From positions 1 through 37,651 of the forward strand of contig JAFLCO010000016.1 of assembly GCA_017303535.1 (NCBI GenBank): a stretch of DNA of 37,651 nucleotides, in the 5' to 3' direction. How positions within the stretch are numbered: position 1 is the first letter of the stretch; each line of letters begins with the position of its first letter. Position numbers and translations under genes: made by a program. Positions 1 through 6,477 of this stretch are shown one piece after another. Below the pieces are notes generated by a model. The model worked only from the letters and a program-made list of their open reading frames with translations. It searched no databases and had not been told where the DNA came from. Source of the stretch: Planctomycetota bacterium. Its GTDB lineage: Bacteria; Planctomycetota; Planctomycetia; Pirellulales; PNKZ01.

Positions 1-1316
1 GCCTTGCGCTCGATGATCTGGTTGTGCAGCGTGTCCATCAGCCCGCGTTTTTCGATCTGGGCCCGAGCCCGACGGATGCTTTCGCCCGTCTGTTCGGCGA
101 TCAGCGCGATTTCGTCTTCGTAATCGTCGACCGTGGCGTCGATCTTTTCGTTCTCGGCGATCCGCTCCAGCACGAAGTGCTCCTTCAAGCTCTTCGCAGT
201 ACTTTCGCGGCTGTTTTGCATGAGCTGGTTAGCATGAGCCCGAATTTCGGCTTCGCCGAAGCCGCTGCGGCGCAGCTCGAGAACGCTCCGCTCGAACTCC
301 CGGCCGGCCTGGCGCTTCAGCAATTCCGGCGGCAAGTCCCAATCGGCGGCCACGGTCAGAGCACCGAGAATCTGCTTACGCGCCTGTTGCTGCTGGTGGT
401 ACTTCAGGCGACGTTCGAGGGCTTTGCGAACGGTGTCACGCAGTTCGCCTTCGTTTTCAAAGTCGCCCAAGCCGCGGAGGAAGTCCGGCGTCATTTCCGG
501 CAGTTCGATCGACTTGACGTCGAGCACTTCGAGTTCAAGCGAAACCTTCTTGCCGCGGAGCGCTTCGTTGGGCGAATTCTCGCTAATTTCGACTTCAGCC
601 GTCTTCTTGTCGCCGGTCTTCGCGCCGACGAGCAGCTTTTCAAAGCCGTCGAGCGTGGCGTCGTGGAACGAAAGAGTCTTGCGAACACAGACGCCTTCGT
701 GCGTCGTTTCGCTGAGGGCTTCATCGCCCGACTTTGCGGTGATCTTCAGCGTCACGAAATCGCCGGCCGCAACAGGGCCGTCTTTTGGCGCCAGCTGGCC
801 TTGGTTGGCCAGCAGGTTCTTGAGTTGCGTATCGACGTCGGCGTCGGTGAATTCGCGGACCGGGCGCTCGATGGCGAGCCCCTTCCAATCCGGCAGATCG
901 AATTCCGGCCGCACTTCGATATCGAACTCGAACTTCATCGCCCCTTCTTCGGGGATCTGCACGGTCAGCGGATCGAAATCCGGTTCGCTGATCGGCGAAA
1001 GCTCGTGCTCGGTGGAGACTTGAGAAAGGCTGTCCATCAGGAGCGAGCCCTTCACCTGTTCAGACACGTCTTTCTTGAACCGCGTTTCGACGAGCTTGCG
1101 CGGCGCGCGACCGGTGCGGAAGCCCGGCACGGCGGCCTTCGGCATCAGTTCCTTGAGCGCGTTTTCAAAGTAACGATCGATGCTGTCGCGGCCGATTTCG
1201 ACCGTGATGTGGCGCTCGCACGCGCTCTTCTTGTCGATCTTCACTTGGAGATCGAGCTTTTGCGCTTCCGTTTCGGCGCCTTCTTCCGAGGCGACGGCAT
1301 CTTCCTGGTTCGACAT
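1..1316 (-). CDS. tig: Trigger factor (ribosome-associated chaperone), 3' end outside window
   Basis: Trigger factor binds near the ribosome exit tunnel and shields nascent chains; it also has a peptidyl-prolyl isomerase domain. The visible 438 codons begin at an ATG at 1316 and run off the left edge without a stop. The N-terminus has an acidic lead (MSNQEDAVASEEGAE), then the ribosome-binding domain with a GFRTGRAPRKL signature near residues 65-75, which matches the family GFRxGkxP motif. A central FKBP-like segment follows (GDFVTLKITA, GVCVRKTL), and then the helical C-terminal arms (QQQQARKQILGAL). The family is usually about 430-470 residues, so only a short tail is missing. The Shine-Dalgarno is weak. 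The tRNA-Gly gene lies about 340 bp upstream on the same strand. Identification is from motif order and length, not from a search. Confidence 0.9.
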   Translation of the reverse strand, partial: MSNQEDAVASEEGAETEAQKLDLQVKIDKKSACERHITVEIGRDSIDRYFENALKELMPKAAVPGFRTGRAPRKLVETRFKKDVSEQVKGSLLMDSLSQVSTEHELSPISEPDFDPLTVQIPEEGAMKFEFDIEVRPEFDLPDWKGLAIERPVREFTDADVDTQLKNLLANQGQLAPKDGPVAAGDFVTLKITAKSGDEALSETTHEGVCVRKTLSFHDATLDGFEKLLVGAKTGDKKTAEVEISENSPNEALRGKKVSLELEVLDVKSIELPEMTPDFLRGLGDFENEGELRDTVRKALERRLKYHQQQQARKQILGALTVAADWDLPPELLKRQAGREFERSVLELRRSGFGEAEIRAHANQLMQNSRESTAKSLKEHFVLERIAENEKIDATVDDYEDEIALIAEQTGESIRRARAQIEKRGLMDTLHNQIIERK

Positions 1317-1619
1317 GGTGGACCGTACAAAGGGGCTGCGGGACAAAGACGCGCTAGGTTCTGCGGCTCGCGGCCATATAGCAGGGCCGCACCAAGCGTC
1401 GCGCGGCGGTCACCAGACTCGCCGCATTCGACGATCGCTGCGGCCTTGGACTCGGCGCAAACGCGTCAACAGTTTTCGAAAGAGAAAAATATACCCGGTT
1501 CGTCGCGGCTCTGCGAGTGGCCCGTGACTGGAAACACATGGCCTCTGCCGGGAAACCAATTGGGCTTAGCGATGCCCTGGGCCCAAACTAGCCATCGTCG
1601 ACCGAGAGCGGCGACGCAT

Positions 1620-1640: not shown

Positions 1641-1653
1641 GAAGAAAAAAGAG

Positions 1654-1726
1654 AGCGGGCGATCGGATTCGAACCGACGACAACCACGTTGGCAACGTGG
1701 TGCTCTACCAACTGAGCTACACCCGC
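1654..1726 (-). tRNA. tRNA-Gly (anticodon GCC)
   Basis: On the minus strand the 73-nt sequence folds as a full cloverleaf. The acceptor is GCGGGTG with CGCCCGC (one G-T wobble), the D arm is GCTC/GAGC, and the anticodon stem is CCACG/CGTGG with loop TTGCCAA, so the anticodon is GCC (glycine). The T arm contains TTCGAAT. The discriminator base is T, as is usual for bacterial tRNA-Gly. CCA is not encoded. It is read in the same direction as the trigger factor gene. Confidence 0.97.
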
Positions 1727-2187: not shown

Positions 2188-5100
2188 ATGGAAGCAAAGC
2201 TGGTAGTTGTCGGCGGCAAGGCCAATATGGGCGAAGTCAAGCTGCGGCTTCCCATGACCATCGGTCGTGGGCACAAAGCCGACTTGATGATTTCGCATCC
2301 GACCGTGAGCCGCGAACATTGCCGGCTGTCTGAGAAAAACGGCGAACTGCTGGTTCACGACAACGGATCGTCGAACGGTACGTTTGTCGATGGCGAAAAA
2401 ATCTCGAAGCCGACGGTGGTGCATCCGGGCCAGATTCTCGCGATCGGCCCGCTCACGTTCCGCGCCGAGTACGAAGGCCCGACGGCGCGCGTCGGCAAGA
2501 AGTCGAGCGGGGAATTAGCGGAAACGCAGGCGATCGACAAGGACGAACTCGATCTCGATTTCCTCCTGACCGACGACGAAGCCCCGGCCGCTCCGGCTCC
2601 GAAAGCCAAGGCCGATAAGAAGACCATTGAGGCCAAGGCGCCGACGGCACCTGCCGGCAAGCCGAGCAAAAACGCGGCGCCGGCAGCGAAGGAAAAACCG
2701 AAGAGCGCCGCACCCGAAAAGGCGCCGCAAGCCAAGTCGCCGGCAATCGTCCCACCGGCCGGAGTTAGCGATACTTCGGACATCGACGTTGACTTCCTGC
2801 TCGATGATCTTAAGGAAGAACAAGCTCAAGCACCGGCCTCGCGCGATACGGCCGAAGTGGACTTCGGCGACCTCGATTTCGGCGAGCCGGAAGCGAAGGC
2901 CGAACCAGACAAAAAAGCGCCGGAAGCCAAAGGCAAGCAGCCTGAAGCCGCGCCGCCGAAGAAGTCCGACGAGCCGAAGCAGCCGGAAGCGTTTGAGCAG
3001 ACCGTCGATTTCAGTTCGGCCGGCGATCTCGCGGAAGACTTTCCCGGGCTCATCGACGACGACACGCTCCCGACGGAAAAGAACAAGGCGGGGGCCGACG
3101 ACTTCGACTTCCTCAGCGATCTCGACGATGCGCCGGCGGCTGCGGAAGCGGCAGCGCCGAAGTTCGATATTCCGGAACCCGAGTCCAAGAAGCCGGAAGC
3201 TAAGAAGCCCGAGGTCGCACCGCCGGAGCAATCCGCTCCGCCGCTGGTCGACGACGATCTCGACCTCGATGCGTTCTTGGGCGGCCTTGAAACGAAGCAG
3301 CCTGAAGACACGGCGAAGTCCGAAGATGTCGTCGCCAAATTCGAACCGGCAGCTGACGAACCTGCACCTCAACAAGAAGCGGCGAAATCCGAACCGTCAC
3401 CGGCGGCGGCCGATGCGACCTTCGACGATTTCTTAGCCGATCTTGATCTCGATGCGGGCCCCAAAACGGAAGCCGCGAAAGAACCGGAGTTCGGCGAACT
3501 TGAGCCGCCCGCCGAAGTCGCCGCTACGCCGACGGCCGATGCCGAAGTGGCTGCGAAGATTCGCACTTCCGACGAAGCCGCCAAGGAACCGGAGTTCGAT
3601 TTCTCCGCCTTCGCGGAAACGCAGGAACTTGAGACGATCGACGCACCGCCGACTACGGAAGCGGCCGAGCCGACTCTTGCCGTCGGCGAGGTAAAAGACG
3701 AACCGGCCGCGGCCGGCGACGCGATCGCCTTCGATTTCCTAGATGAGCCGAAGACTGAAGCCGTTGCTCCGCCGACGGTCGAAGCTCCGCCGGAAGTCAA
3801 ACGGCCCGAAGCCGAGGTCGACTTCGATTTCCTCGCGGCTGACGTCGCGTCGGAAGAAGTCGCCGAAGCGCCCGCCGCGGAACAAGAATTTGAAGCGACG
3901 CTGAAGTTCGATGCCATCGCCCCCGCCGCTCCGGTCGACGAATCGCCGAAGTTCGATCTCGAAGAACCTTCTGAACCACAACCCGAGGCAACTCCCGCCG
4001 AAGCTGCGAAGGCCGCGGACGATTTTGATTTCCTGGCTGATCTCGAAGTCGCAGCTGAAGCGAAATCTGAGGTTGAGAATCCCGAGGCCACCGCTCCTAG
4101 CGAAGCTGAGCCGTTTGAAGCGACGCTGAACTTCGACGCCGTCGAACCGGCCCCAACTGCGGCAAATGACGCGGCGAGTGAATCGCCGAACTTCGACTTT
4201 GAGTCGGTGGCTCCGGTTGCCGAGAACTCGGCCGTCGAAAAGCCGGCGACGGTCGCAGCAGACGAATTCGATTTCCTGGCGGATATCGGCGCGGAGCCGG
4301 CCGCCGAAGCTTCGCCGCCGGCTGAAGCAGCCAAGGCCGAAGTGCCCGCGGAGAAGGCGACGGCCGCCGCCGCCGATGAGTTCGACTTTCTGTCCGGCCT
4401 CGAAGCGGAGAAGCCCGCCGAGTCGCCCAAGGCGGAATTCGACGAAACCGCCATGTTCTCGGTCGACGCCGTCGGGCAAACGGAAGCTCCCTCGGCGGAA
4501 ACCGTCGCTCAAGAACCGAAAGCGGAGATCGAGCCCTCGTGGGATTTTGACGCCGTTGAAACGCCTGCGCCATCCGCGGAAACTCCGGAGGCGCCGCAAA
4601 CCGAGCCTACTTCCGTTGAAGCGGAAACGGCGATGTTTACCGCTGTCGACGCTCCGGCGGAGCCTGCGGCCGAAGCTGCCGCGCCGGACTTCGCCGCGTT
4701 TGACGACGCTGCGGCTGAGCCAGTTCAAGCATCGGAAAAGCCGACAGAATCGGCCTCGCCGAATTTCGACGTCGCCGCCTCCGCCGCGCCGGCCGCGAAG
4801 TCGGTCAAGCCCGCCGCCGCGAAAGGTCCGTCGTTCGTCGAGAAGCTGAAAATGCTCTTCGGCGGCTCGAAGGGAGCGGCCAAGAAAGCCCCGGCCGCGA
4901 AAAAGGCCGGCAAGTCGGGCCAGGCCGAGCCTGCGTTGCCGAGCAAGCCGATGTATCAGCCGGTCGTCCCGCTGCCGACGGCCCGCGAAGAAGCGCCGAT
5001 TCCGCTGGACGACATGCCGATCAAGCTCGACGACTTCGCGGCCGAGCCGGCGACGGAAATGTGGTCGCCCGCTGCTGGCCCAAGCCTCGGCGCGCCCGAG

Positions 5101-6477
5101 TCGACGGCCGGCATCGACGAGTTCGTTGTTCAAGACGAATTCAAAATCGAAGTCGGTCCTGCGGCAAGCGACTCGGCCCCGACCGGTGAAGTCATTACTC
5201 CGGCCAAAGAAGAGTCGTTCGACGCGTTTGTCGCCGAATTGGAAACCGTCGCCCCTGCGACTTCGACCGACGAACCGATCGCCTCGACTTCGGCGGATGC
5301 GACTTCCGTCGATCCTTTGGAAGCCGATCTGCTCGGCGAAGAACGACAAAGCCTGGCCGGTGATGCTCCGCAAGCCGCGGACGCCGCGCCGACGGCCAAG
5401 GCGGACGCTGACTTCATGATGGATTTCGCCGCGGATGAACTCGGCGCTTTGCCGACGGAATCCTCTGCGGGCGACATGGCCGCGGAGACCTCCGAAGCTT
5501 CCGCTGCTGACGAATTCTTTAACGTCGATCTTGGCGCGGCTCCGGCCCCATCCGAGGAAGCGGCTGCCAGCGCCCCGGCGGATGTTTTTGCGCCGAGCGA
5601 GCCGACGTCGAGTGAAGCGGCGCTCCCTGCGGACATTGCGGCCATTTCGCCCGTAGCACCTGCCTCGCGGCGACCGCAGAGCATCGACATCGATCTGCGA
5701 ACGACGTCGTCGTTGCGGCCGCTGGCTCGGCTCAACCTGCAACGTCCGCGGATCGACACGCCGGAGATGCAACCGGAAGAACCGGCCGGCCGTAGCTTCG
5801 CGCCGCGTGCCAAACAAACGCCGCCCCCCGTCGCGCCGCCGGAAACGCCGATCGACGTCGGTGCCTCGCTGACCGACGACGTGCCGAATGACGGCGCGTT
5901 CGCGTGGGACGCTCCCGCGTCGGACGTACCGCCCGGCGATATGTCGATGGGCGACGCACCGGCCACGGATGCGCCGGCTGCCGAGTTGGGCGACGCCGAC
6001 TTCGACTTCTTCAGGAAGGAGCAAGAAGCCGAAGCGGCCCTCGACGCGACGGCGGCGACTCCCGCCGAAGCCGAAGTCGCTCCAAGTGCCGAACCGGCCG
6101 CCGAGTTCGACTTTTTGAGCGACGTGACGGCCGTGGCTTCCCCACCTGAGCCGCAAGCCGAAGCCGGCGACGACGAATTCATCCTGATGCTCGACGAAGT
6201 CGACGCCGCCGCCGTGGAAGAGCCGATCGCCGACGCTTTGCCTTCAACAACGACCGAAGCGCCCGCCGGCGATGCCTCTGCCAAGGCCGAACTGGATCTC
6301 GACTTCCTCGATTTGGAACTCAGCGACGCTCCCGCTCCGGACGCTGCCAACAACTTGCCGCCGGCTGCGGCGAAGTCGGACGAAGCGAAGCCGGAGCAAC
6401 AGCCCGTCGCTTCGAAGAAGCAAGCGAGCGATGACGCGGAACTCGACGACTTCCTCCGCGATCTGGGCATGAACTAA
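2188..6477 (+). CDS. FHA-domain protein with very long acidic, motif-repeat tail
   Basis: This 1429-residue protein has an N-terminal forkhead-associated (phosphothreonine-binding) domain at about residues 1-98, with the key motifs GR (26-27), SREH (41-44) and NGSSNGT (59-65). The remaining 1300 or so residues are Ala/Pro/Glu/Asp-rich, probably disordered, and repeat an aromatic motif in acidic surroundings (for example DDFDFLSDL, DEFDFLADI, DEFDFLSGL). Five sites have the form T-x-x-F with Glu one or two residues before Thr (Thr 272, 571, 646, 754, 814), like the phosphorylated ETTSVF site that GarA binds with its own FHA domain. One basic patch (about 890-920, KMLFGGSKGAAKKAPAAKKA) interrupts the acidic tail. 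No signal peptide or membrane segment is seen, so it is probably cytoplasmic. The ATG has GGGGAG nine bases upstream. The role is unknown; a Ser/Thr-kinase-controlled scaffold is my inference. Confidence 0.85.
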   Translation: MEAKLVVVGGKANMGEVKLRLPMTIGRGHKADLMISHPTVSREHCRLSEKNGELLVHDNGSSNGTFVDGEKISKPTVVHPGQILAIGPLTFRAEYEGPTARVGKKSSGELAETQAIDKDELDLDFLLTDDEAPAAPAPKAKADKKTIEAKAPTAPAGKPSKNAAPAAKEKPKSAAPEKAPQAKSPAIVPPAGVSDTSDIDVDFLLDDLKEEQAQAPASRDTAEVDFGDLDFGEPEAKAEPDKKAPEAKGKQPEAAPPKKSDEPKQPEAFEQTVDFSSAGDLAEDFPGLIDDDTLPTEKNKAGADDFDFLSDLDDAPAAAEAAAPKFDIPEPESKKPEAKKPEVAPPEQSAPPLVDDDLDLDAFLGGLETKQPEDTAKSEDVVAKFEPAADEPAPQQEAAKSEPSPAAADATFDDFLADLDLDAGPKTEAAKEPEFGELEPPAEVAATPTADAEVAAKIRTSDEAAKEPEFDFSAFAETQELETIDAPPTTEAAEPTLAVGEVKDEPAAAGDAIAFDFLDEPKTEAVAPPTVEAPPEVKRPEAEVDFDFLAADVASEEVAEAPAAEQEFEATLKFDAIAPAAPVDESPKFDLEEPSEPQPEATPAEAAKAADDFDFLADLEVAAEAKSEVENPEATAPSEAEPFEATLNFDAVEPAPTAANDAASESPNFDFESVAPVAENSAVEKPATVAADEFDFLADIGAEPAAEASPPAEAAKAEVPAEKATAAAADEFDFLSGLEAEKPAESPKAEFDETAMFSVDAVGQTEAPSAETVAQEPKAEIEPSWDFDAVETPAPSAETPEAPQTEPTSVEAETAMFTAVDAPAEPAAEAAAPDFAAFDDAAAEPVQASEKPTESASPNFDVAASAAPAAKSVKPAAAKGPSFVEKLKMLFGGSKGAAKKAPAAKKAGKSGQAEPALPSKPMYQPVVPLPTAREEAPIPLDDMPIKLDDFAAEPATEMWSPAAGPSLGAPESTAGIDEFVVQDEFKIEVGPAASDSAPTGEVITPAKEESFDAFVAELETVAPATSTDEPIASTSADATSVDPLEADLLGEERQSLAGDAPQAADAAPTAKADADFMMDFAADELGALPTESSAGDMAAETSEASAADEFFNVDLGAAPAPSEEAAASAPADVFAPSEPTSSEAALPADIAAISPVAPASRRPQSIDIDLRTTSSLRPLARLNLQRPRIDTPEMQPEEPAGRSFAPRAKQTPPPVAPPETPIDVGASLTDDVPNDGAFAWDAPASDVPPGDMSMGDAPATDAPAAELGDADFDFFRKEQEAEAALDATAATPAEAEVAPSAEPAAEFDFLSDVTAVASPPEPQAEAGDDEFILMLDEVDAAAVEEPIADALPSTTTEAPAGDASAKAELDLDFLDLELSDAPAPDAANNLPPAAAKSDEAKPEQQPVASKKQASDDAELDDFLRDLGMN

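Follow-up and report, generated by a model that had tools for sequence, protein, structure and literature searches.

A Pirellulales FHA-domain protein with a long acidic tail, candidate self-binding threonines and a predicted C-terminal docking helix

Locus, FHA domain and orthologues

The window (the whole stretch of DNA analysed, 37,651 nucleotides; positions 1 to 37,651 of contig JAFLCO010000016.1, assembly GCA_017303535.1, from a Planctomycetota bacterium) carries a long FHA-domain gene and two divergent neighbours.

3-1346, minus strand: tig (trigger factor), divergent neighbour of the FHA gene
1653-1726, minus strand: tRNA-Gly, divergent neighbour of the FHA gene
2188..6477, plus strand: FHA-tail protein P0001, 1,429 aa, stop included in the coordinates; orthologues of 1,240-1,707 aa in the same bacterial family
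2257..2448, plus strand: FHA domain, residues 24-87 (Pfam PF00498, 66.9 bits against a cut-off of 20.7)

The product has an N-terminal FHA domain followed by a 1,330-residue tail, acidic and mostly disordered as judged from composition and from a low-confidence AlphaFold model of residues 1130-1429. No Pfam domain was found outside the FHA region in the 1,429 aa, nor was a membrane domain. Congener frames at the syntenic place adjoining tig are continuous (1,453, 1,472 and 1,707 aa), which rules out an assembly chimera as the source of the long frame; tail identity among these congeners is only ~33-45%. The gene neighbours are tig, tRNA-Gly and ThuA, with no central-metabolism genes among them, and the source genome yields ~37 matches to the Pkinase domain.

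Whole-genome searches found one clear orthologue per genome in 7/7 genomes of the same bacterial family. Across the order (Pirellulales), 102 of 197 genomes gave a match at E <= 1e-15; outside it, 246 genomes drawn from the phylum gave none at E <= 1e-18. The orthologue set was built from 67 loci and comprises 64 proteins, three extra copies from one genome having been left out. Trigger factor adjoins the FHA gene, divergently, in 29/67 loci across the order, with ClpP-like frames (recognised by eye) nearby as well in 22 of these. Near relatives compared below are the congeners G004, G005 and G006, plus G001. In Rhodopirellula baltica, the FHA hypothetical protein RB1789, which may be an orthologue, has been named as a candidate in stress regulation (PMC2754498).

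Residues R27 (64/64 orthologues), S41 (63/64), R42 (63/64) and N63 (64/64), which we take from established FHA knowledge to form the phosphothreonine pocket, are kept, and the pocket is predicted to be intact. A shallow-alignment model of the domain (pLDDT 62) matched DgcB best, along with Ki-67, GarA and OdhI structures. Its first strand starts at residue 2, with no N-terminal extension ahead of the FHA domain. The Cys of SRxHC within the domain (C45, window 2320-2322) is invariant (64/64) and possibly a family signature. The likeliest reading of the protein is an FHA scaffold of Pirellulales that would respond to Ser/Thr kinases and carry polyvalent candidate self-ligands and docking motifs.

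Candidate threonine ligands in the tail

A sequence-only reading of this DNA had proposed five GarA/OdhI-like phospho-switch sites between 2989 and 4640, each a Thr with Glu at -1 or -2 and Phe at +3. All five lie there, and exactly these tail Thr, with no others, have that arrangement.

3001..3003, plus strand: T272 in FEQTVDF, retained by G004 and G005; G006 has it displaced, as EKTVDF
3898..3900, plus strand: T571 in FEATLKF, not conserved
4123..4125, plus strand: T646 in FEATLNF, kept in G004 only
4447..4449, plus strand: T754 in FDETAMF, kept in G004 (LDATAMF) only
4627..4629, plus strand: T814 in AETAMF, not conserved in place; AETAMFT occurs elsewhere in the G001 tail

Shuffling gave a mean of 0.76 such sites, and 0.04% of 5000 tail shuffles reached five. 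T571 and T646 are not independent, because both sit in one 39-nt direct repeat (85% identical); T272, T754 and T814 show no visible duplication. Recent duplication was rejected as a full account of the Thr sites, since only T571 and T646 have a DNA repeat in common. Absence from close orthologues had been set as the outcome that would count against the proposal, and this was found in part, since T571 and T814 are absent from all three congeners and T646 and T754 occur in one only; T272 is kept in 2/3. A kinase-controlled, multi-site self-binding switch is partly supported by sequence.

Better-conserved sites were found that the sequence-only reading had not listed.

2524..2526, plus strand: T113 in LAETQAID, candidate self-ligand, Thr in G004, G005, G006 and G001
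2773..2775, plus strand: T196 in VSDTSDIDVDFLLDDL, candidate self-ligand, Thr in all four relatives
3619..3621, plus strand: T478 in FAETQEL, kept in G004 and G005

These three are the more deeply conserved candidates. T113 lies 25 residues beyond the FHA domain. The context of T196, SDTSDIDVDFLLDDL, has Thr, a hydrophobic residue at +3 and D-F-L at +6 to +8, in the order and spacing of GarA; the window protein shares this T196-DFL module with its three congeners, G005 having one more copy of it; G001 keeps the Thr and lacks the DFL. The GarA sequence TVETTSVFRADFLSELDAPAQAG, as quoted for comparison earlier, was confirmed from PDB 2kfu. Its proposed counterpart here, DFDFLSDLDDAPA, is indeed present (residues 305-317), with the same likeness found in 11 other FL repeats of the protein. 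The match of DFDFLSDLDDAPA to the GarA stretch was rejected as a sign of common descent, as the protein has 12 such FL motifs. If there is any GarA-like element in the protein, it would be the T196 module.

That local likeness to GarA T22-DFL, together with the FHA similarity, is what could suggest that the protein is a genuine GarA/OdhI orthologue and regulates 2-oxoglutarate metabolism. We consider this highly improbable. The NCBIfam OdhI/GarA model (NF041660) gives 27.9 bits where its cut-off is 200, there is no extension ahead of the FHA domain to hold an N-terminal ETT phosphosite (all candidate sites are C-terminal), and the neighbouring tig, tRNA-Gly and ThuA are not genes of central metabolism. 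Models for FhaB/FipA Rv0019c (NF049868, 57.6 bits against 125) and for the GltG gliding protein (NF033760, 37.1 bits against 650) likewise stay below cut-off. Orthology to GarA/OdhI or FhaB was rejected on these scores, far under the cut-offs.

The full pattern (hydrophobic at -3, acid at -1/-2, Thr, hydrophobic at +3) was scored in the tails of seven family members, with Ser sites and the tails of the next family (f2) as background controls. It occurs at 33/464 Thr, where 6.6 are expected and none of 1000 shuffles exceeds 16, and at 8/644 Ser against 9.3 expected; the Thr-versus-Ser difference (Fisher p = 3.8e-7), like all family-level p-values here, is optimistic because the seven sequences, one from each of the only seven genomes covered, are related. 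With Ala, Lys or Gln as the centre residue, no clear excess of the pattern was seen in the family tails. Position by position, tail Thr in the seven members are enriched for E at -1 (z 5.5) and an aromatic at +3 (z 4.0), and an aromatic at +3 of tail Ser is depleted (z -3.0). Enrichment confined to Thr fits a phosphothreonine-specific FHA ligand, and the pattern positions are the same as those described for the GarA, OdhI and DgcB self-peptides (PMC6733907). Motif Thr are conserved in 16/32 aligned congener cells and other tail Thr in 24/146 (p = 1.3e-4), about a threefold difference. Read backwards, the pattern is in excess as well (18 against 6.5 expected), so hydrophobics spaced symmetrically about Thr make up part of the signal, and in 2/7 family members (G002 and G003) the pattern is not significant singly. 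The tail of the window protein itself has a dozen or so Thr sites of the FHA-ligand kind, of which only some are conserved.

These sites could instead be by-products of a repetitive Ala/Glu/Pro/Asp/Phe-rich tail growing by duplication, with no functional switch. A short duplication did give rise to T571/T646, congener tails have diverged to ~33-45% identity, and few of the five sites hold the same position in the congeners. Against such an origin stand the enrichment over shuffles, the lack of a comparable excess with Ser, Ala, Lys or Gln as the centre, and the better conservation of motif Thr, and we judge it improbable.

Six f2 orthologues, long-tailed or cut by contig ends, showed no enrichment (3 against 4.3 expected). 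The pattern is therefore a lineage trait, and the FHA protein would not in itself depend on self-ligands.

FL repeats, the predicted docking helix and other tail modules

A second series of motifs is spread along the tail, together with two conserved modules.

2551..6474, plus strand: 12 FL motifs of the F/L-D-F-L-x-D-L type, the first at F125, the last being the C terminus
4825..4914, plus strand: residues 880-909, a basic amphipathic module (GPSFVEKLKMLFGGSKGAAKKAPAAKK) also conserved in G001 and the congeners
5665..5799, plus strand: SSLR module IDIDLRTTSSLRPLARLNLQRPRIDTPEMQPEEPAGRSF, residues 1160-1204, kept in congeners and G001
6430..6474, plus strand: predicted C-terminal docking helix DDAELDDFLRDLGMN, residues 1415-1429, from the orthologue motif and AlphaFold

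Shuffling predicts 0.19 FL motifs against the 12 observed, with DNA repeat families D1-D3 as further evidence for the repeats. The FL motifs, DFDFLSDLDDAPA among them, resemble the C-terminal helix (DDAELDDFLRDLG), and by this likeness the internal repeats would be copies of the terminal one. Scored as hydrophobic-x-x-F-L-x-x-hydrophobic within the last 22 residues, the C-terminal motif ends 42/64 orthologues across the order (1.2 expected) and 22/29 of those linked to tig; proteins as short as 191-300 aa, with tails that do not align to the window protein's, have it too. An acidic amphipathic C-terminal helix motif, D-x-L-x-x-F-L-x-x-L, is kept across the order, with the tail from FHA domain to C terminus ranging from <100 to 1600 residues. 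The AlphaFold model of residues 1130-1429 is mostly of low confidence (mean pLDDT 51.8, pTM 0.15), and its C-terminal helix reaches pLDDT ~89. The C-terminal peptide may resemble the CheY-binding peptide at the C terminus of CheZ and the C-terminal peptide of FtsZ; against PDB sequences it gave a weak calmodulin match only (E 1.5). Scanning the same genome for a second protein ending in the docking motif gave 85 pattern places (69 in the reversed control), none convincing among the 50 examined.

The FHA domain might instead read a phosphothreonine on another protein (e.g., a kinase activation loop), the tail being a spacer with FL docking motifs and its Thr sites being kinase substrates or parts of docking motifs, not ligands of their own FHA domain. 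Short orthologues (~200-400 aa), which keep the pocket and C-terminal motif and mostly lack the Thr pattern, and the f2 long tails, which also lack it, both argue for such a reader. Alone it leaves unexplained the self-peptide positions (-3, -2/-1, +3) and the Thr specificity of the family pattern; we hold it to be the main rival to the self-binding mechanism, less probable than not.

In other families, acidic tails contain a basic Trp module (KRGWWPFGRKK) once or twice (L071, L074, L076, L077, L078 and L105), and such a module is exactly C-terminal in L108, L115 and L121; the window protein's family has PSFVEKLKMLFGGSKGAAKK in place of the WWPFGRK modules. Basic modules of this kind could possibly contact membrane or nucleic acid. 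The SSLR module is a 45-residue island within the diverging tail, with an AlphaFold pLDDT of only ~55-72.

Proposed mechanism and comparison with known systems

Building on the observed architecture, conservation and enrichment, we favour, at a probability of roughly 0.4, a protein whose tail Thr, phosphorylated by kinases, would bind the FHA domain in cis or in trans and so gate or cluster a scaffold that holds a client through its FL motifs and C-terminal helix. Hanks-type Ser/Thr kinases would phosphorylate tail Thr, T113 and T196 first, with the others in turnover. Each resulting phosphothreonine would be bound by an FHA domain, that of its own molecule or of a neighbouring one, and this self-binding would either close the FHA domain to other ligands, as in GarA/OdhI, or cross-link molecules into a cluster, as in Rv1747. 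FL motifs, together with the C-terminal helix, would hold a client protein, and the number and position of Thr sites would drift while overall valence stays.

A more specific version is tentative and on balance unlikely: a single-FHA scaffold in which about a dozen self-ligand Thr, interleaved with a dozen copies of the C-terminal helix, would let a kinase grade how many clients are gathered, valence being set by repeat turnover in one lineage and short forms having a single docking helix.

Planctomycetes have many Hanks-type kinases, and we know of few readers or clients for them; a literature search found no planctomycete phosphoproteome. Present across the order and conserved in its C-terminal docking helix, this FHA protein would be a defined reader for these kinases, and, if the tail binds its own FHA domain, the natural series of short to long orthologues could show how valence tunes a bacterial phospho-switch.

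The FHA-tail protein resembles GarA and OdhI in its FHA fold, its sites with E, T and a hydrophobic residue at +3, and the DFL stretch after Thr (best at T196). Those proteins differ in having an N-terminal site and ~150 aa and in inhibiting 2-oxoglutarate dehydrogenase, whereas here there are many C-terminal candidate sites. In FHA oligomerisation of the Rad53/Chk2 and TIFA type, the phosphothreonine of one molecule binds the FHA domain of the next; these are eukaryotic proteins whose architecture is unrelated to that of the FHA-tail protein. The TIFA fibre is mentioned in a study of Bdellovibrio DgcB (PMC6733907). DgcB, the best fold match, has a self-tail peptide with hydrophobic residues at -3/+2/+3 and Glu at -2, but its tail is N-terminal and it carries a GGDEF output domain (PMC6733907).

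The arrangement had been thought undescribed, and precedents do exist, in Rv1747 (PMC9312465), the DgcB self-peptide (PMC6733907) and OdhI/GarA. Rv1747 of Mycobacterium tuberculosis has a disordered linker between its two FHA domains, and its 1-310 fragment condenses on phosphorylation by PknF and is dispersed by PstP (PMC9312465). Both proteins combine FHA with a disordered region containing candidate Thr ligands, and in Rv1747 phosphorylation promotes a condensation that a phosphatase reverses. Rv1747 differs in its two FHA domains, ~300 aa and ABC transporter fusion, against one FHA domain and a 1,330-aa tail here. Multi-site FHA self-association has already been reported, in Rv1747, and one FHA domain with a very long polyvalent tail and an order-wide docking helix is a variant of this known kind.
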